Shown here: piece by piece, positions 24,589 to 27,753 of the stretch
Position numbering within the stretch: the stretch's first letter is position 1
Layout: each line of letters opens with the position of its first letter
Assembly: GCF_009711045.1 (NCBI RefSeq)
Contig: NZ_WMJX01000005.1
Coordinates: 62,001 to 126,000, forward strand
Length of the DNA: 64,000 nt
Source: Myroides albus
GTDB taxonomy: Bacteria; Bacteroidota; Bacteroidia; Flavobacteriales; Flavobacteriaceae
Direction of reading: 5' to 3'
Notes under the pieces: model-generated
What the model saw: only the letters and a program-made list of their open reading frames with translations
Told to the model about the DNA's origin: nothing
Databases searched by the model: none
Made by a program: the position numbers and the translations under genes

Positions 24589-25743
24589 TTATTTGCTGAT
24601 TACTTTAATAGTTTCTTTTACTTGCTGAGCTATTTCTCTCGCTTTAGTCATATCACTATTGACAATTGTTACGTGTCCCATTTTTCTAAAAGGACGAGTT
24701 TCGCGTTTACCATAGATATGAGGAGTCACACCCTCTATCGCTAAGATATCTTCCATTCCTTCATAGTACACTTGTCCAGTATATCCTTCAGCGCCTACTA
24801 AGTTTACCATGATACCAGCCACTTTGCTATCCGTATTCCCTAAAGGTAAATCTAAAATAGCACGGATGTGTTGTTCGAATTGGGAAGTATAACTCGCCTC
24901 TATAGAGTAGTGTCCAGAGTTATGAGGGCGAGGAGCCACTTCATTCACTAATACATCGTCATCTTGCGTTTGGAACATCTCCACAGCTAATAAACCTACA
25001 TGATTAAATTTCTCAGAAACTTGTAGCGCAATAGCCCTTGCCTTATCCGCTACAGCGCTATCGATACGCGCAGGACAGATCACATATTCTACTTGGTTAG
25101 CTTCTGGGTGGAACTCCATTTCTACTACAGGGTATGTTTTGATTTCTCCAGAAGCAGAACGGGCTACGATCACAGCTAATTCGTTTTTAAAAGGAACCAT
25201 TACTTCTGCGATACACTCTACATTAGGTAGTACATCTAAGTCAGTAATCGAGCGAACTACTTTTACTCCATTGCCATCATACCCAAACTGAGCTGACTTC
25301 CATACGAATGGCATCGTTACTTCATTAGCTGTAGCTGCTGTTTTTAGAGCTTCTATATCTGAGAATCTCTTATAAGGAGCAGTTGGGATATTATGAGTAG
25401 TATAGAAATCTTTTTGATTTCCTTTATTTTGGATTAATCGAAGTGTCTTAGGAGAAGGGAATACTTTAAGCCCTTCTTCTTCTAACTTATCAAGTGCATC
25501 TAAGTTGACATTTTCTATTTCGATCGTTAAGACATCCACTGTTTTACCAAAGCGATAAACAGTTTCAAAATCCATTAAATCCCCTTGGAAGAACTGATGT
25601 GCTCCATACTGAGAAGGGGCATCTTTGCTGGGATCTAGTACATTGGTAGCGATGTCAAATTTACGAGTGTCATATAGGAGCATTTTACCTAATTGACCTC
25701 CTCCTAATATTCCCAAACGGAAATCAGTAGAAAAGTAATTCAT
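24589..25743 (-). CDS. purK: 5-(carboxyamino)imidazole ribonucleotide synthase PurK
   Basis: The 384-residue protein is an ATP-grasp enzyme. LGILGGGQLGKMLLYDTRKF at the start is the PurK signature of the N-terminal preATP-grasp domain. The ATP-grasp part contains FVWKSAQFGYDGNGV, AEVMVPFKNELAVIVARS and the metal-binding NEVAPRPHNSGHYSIE. It carboxylates AIR with ATP and bicarbonate to N5-CAIR, which PurE then rearranges. It leads the purKE operon and has a TATCTTTG box 25 bases upstream of its start. Confidence 0.97.
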   Translation of the reverse strand: MNYFSTDFRLGILGGGQLGKMLLYDTRKFDIATNVLDPSKDAPSQYGAHQFFQGDLMDFETVYRFGKTVDVLTIEIENVNLDALDKLEEEGLKVFPSPKTLRLIQNKGNQKDFYTTHNIPTAPYKRFSDIEALKTAATANEVTMPFVWKSAQFGYDGNGVKVVRSITDLDVLPNVECIAEVMVPFKNELAVIVARSASGEIKTYPVVEMEFHPEANQVEYVICPARIDSAVADKARAIALQVSEKFNHVGLLAVEMFQTQDDDVLVNEVAPRPHNSGHYSIEASYTSQFEQHIRAILDLPLGNTDSKVAGIMVNLVGAEGYTGQVYYEGMEDILAIEGVTPHIYGKRETRPFRKMGHVTIVNSDMTKAREIAQQVKETIKVISK

Positions 25744-26245: not shown

Positions 26246-26463
26246 ATCTCGCTACAAAGCTATAGGAAGATTGTCAATTAATATCAGGTAGTAATTAACT
26301 GCTGACTTAGATCGAATTCAGGTTTTTTAACAGAAGGAGGGAGGTCATTTATACAATCTATTTATTAGTTGATTGTTTTGTTTTAGGCAAATGTATTTCT
26401 CTTTTAAACGATAAGTAGTCATTGCTGTATTTATGCCTTATTTGCATAAGTTCTTCACAGCAG

Positions 26464-26519
26464 CTTCAACATTTTTCCGAGATAATACTACTTGAAGGAG
26501 GGGGGAAGAAATGTTGAAG
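26464..26519. repeat. 11-bp inverted repeat
   Basis: CTTCAACATTT (26464-26474) and AAATGTTGAAG (26509-26519) enclose 34 bases that contain GGAGGGGGGAAG. No T tract follows, so it is not a standard terminator. Confidence 0.55.
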
Positions 26520-26885
26520 GAGTATTAAGGAGATTTTGAATATAATAAGCATAGGTGTAGTGGTTGATGATGTTGTTTTAGTTTTACTGCTTGTATTGGC
26601 TGTTTGACTTGTATCTGAATAATTCTTATCAATCTTTTGATCTTGTGGTTGATGATGCCATGAGGTGTCAGTAAAAACACATTCGACAAATGGTTTGAAG
26701 TACGGTCCTTGTATTCGTTTGGTTAATTTTATGATATTGTGTTTTTTTGTTTTATTTAAGTGTAGTTTTTTATATTTATAATATTTATGTCTTATTTTTA
26801 TAAGATATATTTTCATATTTTACAGATGTATTGGTTATTATTCTTTTTTAAGATATTGTTTTGCTAATAAAAAGTTAATTTCTGT

Positions 26886-26917
26886 TTTGATTTTAATAAT
26901 AAATTGCGCTATATTTG
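26886..26917 (+). promoter_or_regulatory. Promoter of candidate small RNA
   Basis: TTTG (26886-26889) and TATATTTG (26910-26917) are separated by 20 bases, a full match to the Bacteroidota -33/-7 promoter consensus. Confidence 0.65.
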
Positions 26918-26922
26918 AAAGG

Positions 26923-27050
26923 ATAGAAATTACAATAATGTTTTTGTAAGATATTTAAAAGTAATCTCAACGATAAGACTCTACTTTGGTTTTAGAGTTA
27001 GATTGAATTAGTTTGTTTTAGACGTAGCGTTGTGAAGCGCTACGTTTTTT
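26923..27050 (+). ncRNA. Candidate ~125-nt small RNA upstream of hpt
   Basis: A consensus promoter ends at 26917, and a strong GC-rich terminator hairpin with six T ends at 27050, giving a transcript of about 125 bases. The longest frame with ATG inside is three codons, so it is not a peptide gene. Before the terminator the sequence ACTCTA (26978-26983) pairs with TAGAGT (26993-26998) around a nine-base loop. I recognise no known family: it lacks RNase P, tmRNA and SRP RNA signatures, and is shorter than typical 6S RNA. An hpt leader is the alternative, but hpt has its own -7 box downstream of the terminator. Confidence 0.45.
27021..27050 (+). terminator. Terminator of candidate small RNA
   Basis: ACGTAGCG (27022-27029) and CGCTACGT (27038-27045) form a perfect stem with an eight-base loop, followed by T6. 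No gene stop codon is nearby on the plus strand, which implies a non-coding transcript ends here. Confidence 0.85.
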
Positions 27051-27188: not shown

Positions 27189-27196
27189 TATATTTG
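27189..27196 (+). promoter_or_regulatory. -7 promoter element of hpt
   Basis: TATATTTG matches TAnnTTTG 23 bases before the hpt start codon. No correctly spaced -33 TTTG is seen. Confidence 0.55.
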
Positions 27197-27219: not shown

Positions 27220-27753
27220 ATGGAAATACAAGTTTTAGACAAAACGTTTGTGCCGTTTATATCAGCAGAGCGTATCCAAAATCGATTAGAAGAAATTGCA
27301 ACTCAAATAGAAAGAGATATGCAAGGAGACATTCCTGTATTTATTGGAGTTCTTAATGGATCTTTTATGGTATTTAGTGACTTGATAAAAAAGTATAAGG
27401 GAGACTGTGAGATGAGCTTTGTGAAAATGGCATCTTATATTGGAACTCAATCTAGCAATCAAGTGAATCAGTTACTTGGTTTAGATATAGACGTGACTGA
27501 TCGTACAGTTGTAATCATTGAAGATATTGTAGATACAGGTAATACATTAGTAGCTTTAAAAAAGCTATTTGATCAACAACGTCCGAAACAAGTTAAAATA
27601 TGCACACTTTGTCTGAAGCCAGAGGCATATAAAAAGGATATTCCTTTAGACTATGTCGCTTTTGAAATAGAAAATAAATTTATCGTAGGGTATGGTATGG
27701 ACTATGATAAATTCGGTAGAAATATACCAGAGATATACCAAATTAAAGAATAA
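27220..27753 (+). CDS. hpt: Hypoxanthine phosphoribosyltransferase
   Basis: The 177-residue protein is a type I phosphoribosyltransferase. VVIIEDIVDTGNTL at about 91-104 is the PRPP-binding motif, GVLNGSFMVFSDL at about 43-55 provides the pyrophosphate loop, and FEIENKFIVGYGMDYD near 150 is the purine-contacting hood region of HPRT. It salvages hypoxanthine and guanine to IMP and GMP in the cytosol. It precedes adk by 29 bases, so both nucleotide genes are likely co-transcribed. Confidence 0.95.
   Translation: MEIQVLDKTFVPFISAERIQNRLEEIATQIERDMQGDIPVFIGVLNGSFMVFSDLIKKYKGDCEMSFVKMASYIGTQSSNQVNQLLGLDIDVTDRTVVIIEDIVDTGNTLVALKKLFDQQRPKQVKICTLCLKPEAYKKDIPLDYVAFEIENKFIVGYGMDYDKFGRNIPEIYQIKE

Follow-up and report, generated by a model that had tools for sequence, protein, structure and literature searches.

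The window analysed here is a 64,000-nucleotide stretch of the Myroides albus genome in which the divergent genes purK and hpt are separated by a gap of 1.5 kb. Within this gap, an original prediction made from the sequence alone had placed a small RNA with its own promoter and terminator. The elements of the locus, including those delimited by the comparisons described below, are as follows.

24589 to 25743, minus strand: purK, the divergent upstream neighbour and a synteny marker
26886 to 26917, plus strand: promoter, with TTTG at 26886-26889, a 20-nt spacer and TATATTTG at 26910-26917
26922 to 26961, plus strand: 5' part of the RNA (predicted start near 26922), containing a small local hairpin; its sequence and length vary
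26957 to 27050, plus strand: conserved RNA core, the basis of the search models R1 and R2
26962 to 27005, plus strand: conserved hairpin of 15 pairs, left arm 26962-26979, right arm 26989-27005
27006 to 27019, plus strand: linker AATTAGTTTGTTTT, single-stranded, invariant in 14 of 14 species, the proposed pairing region
27020 to 27050, plus strand: intrinsic terminator, a 12-pair stem (27020-27047) and a T run
27220 to 27753, plus strand: hpt, the neighbour on the downstream side; its -7 box, separate from that of the RNA, is at 27189-27196

The promoter that had been claimed, namely TTTG, 20 bases and a -7 box, is present at these positions, and the claimed terminator hairpin with its T run corresponds to the 12-pair stem. 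The upstream TTTG is the second element of the Bacteroidota promoter form. The box itself, TAnnTTTG, is given as the primary sigma-factor box of F. psychrophilum in the available text of PMC9723704. The window contains six occurrences of the pattern TTTG-N19..21-TAnnTTTG, with 1.8 expected and a count of six reached by 2 of 100 shuffles, so a single match is weak evidence. The scan that detects the terminator gives two terminator-like sites in 4 kb against 1.5 in shuffles. The region folds significantly better than shuffles only when the terminator is included (z -3.1, compared with z -0.9 when it is left out). Taken alone, the window makes a modest case for an RNA gene; the unit rises above chance because 14 genomes conserve its promoter position, core and terminator.

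The RNA is single copy in its own genome (E≤0.001). A DNA search of 101 genomes of the genus, its own included, matched 30 at E≤0.01. Besides its own, only two matches were strong (87-88% identity), and both of these sit in the gap between divergently oriented purK and hpt; the remaining matches are short, with E values of 1.2e-5 or worse. The covariance model R1, built from three sequences and run against 398 genomes of the genus as drawn by the search tool, matched strongly in 14 (E≤1.0e-14, own included). At every one of these 14 loci the RNA is flanked by hpt, purK and adk and thus lies in the purK/hpt gap. Weak R1 matches fall at ten places, in nine further genomes and at one place in G336; none of the ten lies beside purK, hpt or adk, and they are mostly at the level expected by chance for 398 genomes. 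The best of them, in G070 (C10:29398-29484; L049 1501-1587), has an E value of 4.8e-5 and is better than chance would give, with about 0.02 such matches expected over about 384 genomes; this non-syntenic place coincides with a terminator region that directly follows an open frame, and has GTTAGAGTTAG...AATTAGTTTGTTT in common with the core.

Beyond the genus set, a second covariance model run against 397 family genomes matched its own genome and 23 others at E≤0.1, the best of these others at 8.4e-4, all within chance. Among 80 named hpt loci R1 is strong in three, from Myroides marinus, Myroides sp. WP-1 and Myroides sp. N17-2, which are the only loci titled Myroides; the other 77 show no R1 match better than E 0.49. 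Fewer than 120 bases upstream of hpt are available in L114 and L133, too short to show the RNA, and L066, with 532, is partial. Run on seven of these genomes in full, R2 is strong in the three Myroides, finds nothing up to E=1 in F. psychrophilum, F. johnsoniae (strain CI04) or F. saliperosum, and reaches E 0.55 at best in HSC-61S13.

Each of the 14 syntenic loci has the box TATATTTG upstream of the core and keeps the RNA's own promoter and own terminator together. Of the 102 core columns, 65 are identical in every one of the 14 species, compared with 1 of 79 fourfold-degenerate columns of hpt and adk in the same species, and pairwise identity to the window's species at fourfold sites is 0.33-0.48. 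Alignment of the gap across relatives, a check that the original prediction had proposed, confirmed that the promoter-terminator unit is conserved. Using 16 RNA-bearing loci, three of which duplicate or extend the 14-genome set, the gap aligns as three islands, namely the end adjoining purK (9 of 16 loci) and, in all 16 loci, both the core at 26957-27050 and the hpt promoter, with two further short stray matches at E 0.007.

The predicted RNA is about 129 nt long in the window and 129-157 nt across the 14 species. Its longest ATG frame in the window has three codons, in agreement with the original claim that no frame exceeds this length. The longest ATG frames across the 14 species range from 0 to 26 codons, and no reading frame common to all 14 was found; three loci (L042, L046 and L047) carry 21-codon frames with similar ends that read through the conserved core. 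The second hairpin that had been described, ACTCTA/TAGAGT, exists as letters in the window; it recurs in this form in only 2 of the 14 species (the window's and that of L041), and the conserved element is instead the longer hairpin at 26962-27005. Over the 14 species 99.5% of the cells of this longer hairpin are paired. Its changes are one-sided, with one pair broken in one species, and no two-sided covariation was found in it among the 14 species. In the terminator stem two pairs have changed on both sides with pairing kept, once each, and the stem is preserved in all 14 species around a loop that varies. The covariation that had been proposed as a check thus appears in the terminator and is absent from the conserved hairpin; its support for the fold is consistent but thin because the letters are too conserved. 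The 5' part of 40-62 nt is variable in letters and length, yet its folding z score is negative in 14 of 14 species (mean -1.4; below -1 in 9 of 14).

The promoter spacer carries a further element. In 12 of the 14 species an AGTTAA-N4/5-TTAAC palindrome stands directly before TATATTTG, and in those 12 genomes the combination of palindrome and box occurs once per genome, at the RNA. Without the -7 box, the palindrome form is found at 13 places, 11 of them at the RNA gene. Among the 14 genomes compared, it is absent from the window's own species and from G336. The simple reading of the palindrome is that the RNA promoter has a dedicated regulator.

These comparisons leave us confident that the locus holds a real, conserved, non-coding unit. 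The original inference of a separate small RNA, possibly unrelated to hpt, is supported by the promoter box, core and terminator at 14 of 14 syntenic loci, and the unit very probably represents a regulatory RNA not yet described. The explanation we favour, and consider somewhat better than an even bet, is a small RNA specific to the Myroides clade, encoded by an independent gene, that acts in trans by pairing its linker with mRNA leaders. Its transcription would fall to RNA polymerase with the Bacteroidota primary sigma factor and, in most species, would be controlled by a regulator that recognises the palindrome AGTTAA-N4/5-TTAACT within the promoter spacer. The linker AAUUAGUUUGUUUU would then block translation, without Hfq, by base-pairing with mRNA leaders immediately before their start codons. 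A single-copy, syntenic RNA that is near-invariant despite near-saturated silent sites offers a testable entry into post-transcriptional control without Hfq. To our knowledge, few small RNAs have been characterised in Flavobacteriia. At the level of titles and abstract openings, no literature on Myroides small RNAs or small RNA-target pairs was found, one query being loose and its leading results not concerned with Myroides.

Candidate targets were sought as complements of the linker. Perfect 14-nt complements revealed no target gene in common across the 14 genomes, in which the perfect complement of GAATTAGTTTGTTT occurs at five places besides the RNA (G157, G122, G258 and two in G336). A 14-nt complement of the linker region, AGCAAACAAACTAATTCAAAATATG, is intergenic at G157:C1:971412 (L176) and G122:C1:3834493 (L177), the only shared pair, with no clear gene after it. 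With one mismatch allowed, nine genomes hold 189 near-complements, the RNA itself included, against 228 for the reversed control, and thus show no excess. From six of these nine genomes 100 sites were fetched, one G218 place being left out; in G170 and G258 three places were looked at, and G336 lies outside the fetched sites. Among the 100, a single leader site, TAAAACAAACTAATA, recurs at one gene in three species: it stands about 10-24 nt ahead of the start of POT-A, a POT-family transporter gene whose product matches Pfam PF00854 and MFS_1. The other orthologous near-complements lie inside open frames.

POT-A orthologues of G157, G330, G192 and G336 were recovered by gene neighbourhood. When up to two bases past the linker are counted as well, the POT-A leader is complementary over 12-15 contiguous nt in five of seven species, namely 15 in G122, 14 in G000, G218 and G192, and 12 in G330. 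The remaining two reach 9 nt; in G157 the complement is broken by a 1-nt deletion, and in G336 it extends into the ATG. Since G192 and G218 are close relatives, the independent support is smaller than the species count. Seven stretches (L347, L348, L341, L334, L351, L370 and L350) show a cluster of up to four POT-family transporter genes. Where leaders in the cluster were compared, only that of the first copy, POT-A, contains the stretch complementary to the linker. Of the leader blocks common to four species in this cluster, the 13-nt POT-A block is the longest except for one of 20 nt, which is probably a coding overlap.

Ranked by pairing energy among 319 sampled leaders, POT-A leaders occupy positions 2, 3, 4, 13 and 15; positions 15 (G330) and 13 (G157) belong to orthologues chosen independently of the pattern. 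Rank 1 is held by another G157 gene, the product of which we take to be DoxD-like, and its weaker G122 orthologue stands at rank 7. In G057, which represents a further lineage, none of 18 near-complement sites lies before a POT gene. At the place guessed from synteny, POT-A was not found in G057, G075, G258 or G359, and the stretches L333, L345 and L346 hold no POT-A. One target may tentatively be the POT-A leader, paired over the complement about 10-24 nt before the ATG; judged from these sequence comparisons, we regard POT-A as a possible, on balance doubtful, target. The full chain, in which a Myroides-specific small RNA with a palindrome-controlled promoter shuts off POT peptide uptake through its terminator-adjacent linker, with no Hfq or RRM chaperone found, would be a speculative reading that we put forward with low confidence. 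If the POT link were true, it would tie a small RNA to peptide feeding.

The 3' module of enterobacterial Hfq-binding small RNAs consists of a hairpin, a U-rich linker and a terminator with a T tail. The Myroides RNA resembles it in all three parts and differs in its host, in whose genome no Hfq was found up to E=0.1 by a search that detects Hfq in 5 of 14 control genomes; an Hfq-dependent small RNA was set aside for this reason. An RRM protein binding UUAG repeats was likewise rejected. No RRM_1 was found in the genome at E≤0.001 by a search that detects the family in 2 of 14 controls, Bacteroides ihuae among them, and the 25 6-mers most enriched ahead of terminators in 815 kb of sampled DNA include none with TTAG. 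The enriched 6-mers there are A-rich ones; sequences with two or more TTAG make up a raw share of 3%.

In the accessible part of PMC11697453, FopS and GibS are described as Bacteroides small RNAs and RbpB partners whose hosts are without classical chaperones, and GibS as pairing with translation initiation regions. On that description, the Myroides RNA resembles them in having a single-stranded region proposed for pairing and an intrinsic terminator. It differs from FopS, which has its pairing region at the 5' end and is present in 14 copies, in being single copy with a proposed pairing region adjacent to the terminator, and from the RbpB-associated small RNAs as there described in that no RRM_1 protein was found in its host.

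Linker pairing with mRNAs has one sizeable competitor, which we consider unlikely, namely that the RNA binds a protein through an invariant hairpin-linker-terminator module, as a sponge or a ribonucleoprotein component, and pairs with no mRNA. The two invariant runs formed by the right arm of the hairpin and the linker, 14 and 20 nt long and one base apart, exceed the usual pairing seed, and the lack of a genome-wide excess of linker complements points the same way. The two protein families tested, RRM_1 and Hfq, are on the other hand not found in the genome, and the sequences before terminators show no TTAG 6-mer in their top 25.

That the unit has no RNA function, being a conserved DNA element or a chance promoter and terminator, is very improbable. 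Lone promoter and terminator matches of this form do arise by chance, and the two-sided covariation is slight; however, the invariance spans the transcribed hairpin, linker and terminator, pairing in the hairpin persists despite changes, the terminator stem outlasts its variable loop, and the 5' parts of all 14 species fold better than the shuffle mean.

Still less credible is a prematurely terminated hpt leader, that is, an attenuator that would let RNA polymerase through to hpt under certain conditions. Attenuation is common among purine genes, the RNA lies on the same strand as hpt, and its terminator ends only about 170 nt before that gene. Against this, hpt has a conserved -7 box of its own, as had been claimed: TATATTTG stands at 27189-27196, within the hpt promoter that forms a separate conserved island in the gap alignment. 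Nothing upstream pairs with the left arm of the terminator in the predicted folds, the terminator is kept in 14 of 14 species, and the stretch from the terminator to the hpt promoter aligns throughout only with L041 and L047, the only loci to align throughout from core to hpt.

The original prediction recognised no RNA family, and Rfam 15 agrees, with no match at the RNA locus at gathering. Ten matches lie below gathering up to E=10, the best being the L20 leader (E 0.1; 19.5 of 58.7 bits) and SpF39 (E 0.16; 26.2 of 60 bits), and the Bacteroides small RNA BTnc060 scores 14.8 of 228.9 bits (E 4.1); by our reading these rest mainly on the terminator and AT-rich filler. 6S-Flavo (RF01685), like the present RNA a short intergenic RNA of flavobacteria, was tried and set aside, as its four places up to E=10 in the genome include none at this locus. 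The 6S-Flavo of the Myroides genome lies on another contig (G000 C142:91876-91982; L002) at 84.4 bits against a gathering score of 85, just far enough under it that automatic annotation could miss the gene. Rfp18 of F. psychrophilum is described, in the available text of PMC9723704, as strongly structured with a third stem-loop, predicted to pair with mRNA, widely conserved between species of Flavobacterium and required for two metalloprotease mRNAs to reach their normal levels. As so described, it is likewise a Flavobacteriaceae small RNA with strong predicted structure, and the Myroides RNA also has about three hairpins; the latter was found only in the Myroides clade and is set apart by that description and by the absence of an R2 match in F. 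psychrophilum. The least probable alternative is that the RNA belongs, in highly diverged form, to a known family, namely 6S RNA or Rfp18, for all that the hairpin number recalls Rfp18 as partially described: 6S-Flavo lies elsewhere, R2 finds nothing in F. psychrophilum up to E=1, Rfp18 is by that account widely conserved in its genus while R1 is strong in only 14 of 398 genomes, and no Rfam family reaches gathering.

The rest of the gap differs between lineages. In the Flavobacterium loci read, it is filled by an uncharacterised minus-strand open reading frame, 209 codons long in L065 and without a Pfam family, with a homologue in 33 of the 80 named hpt loci, HSC-61S13 included, and in neither the 14 RNA loci nor the window. 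The carriers looked at are L061, L064, L065, L067, L072 and L080, the L067 copy having two stops inside the matched part. Judging by this distribution, the RNA may have arisen where the gap frame was lost in the Myroides line, in which case the locus may show the birth of an RNA gene. Elsewhere in the gap, at 26460-26524, where no relative aligned in the comparison of 16 RNA-bearing loci, the arms CTTCAACATTT/AAATGTTGAAG of a long inverted repeat enclose a purine-rich loop in the window; either strand of this repeat gives a better fold than shuffles do (z -3.1 and -4.0).
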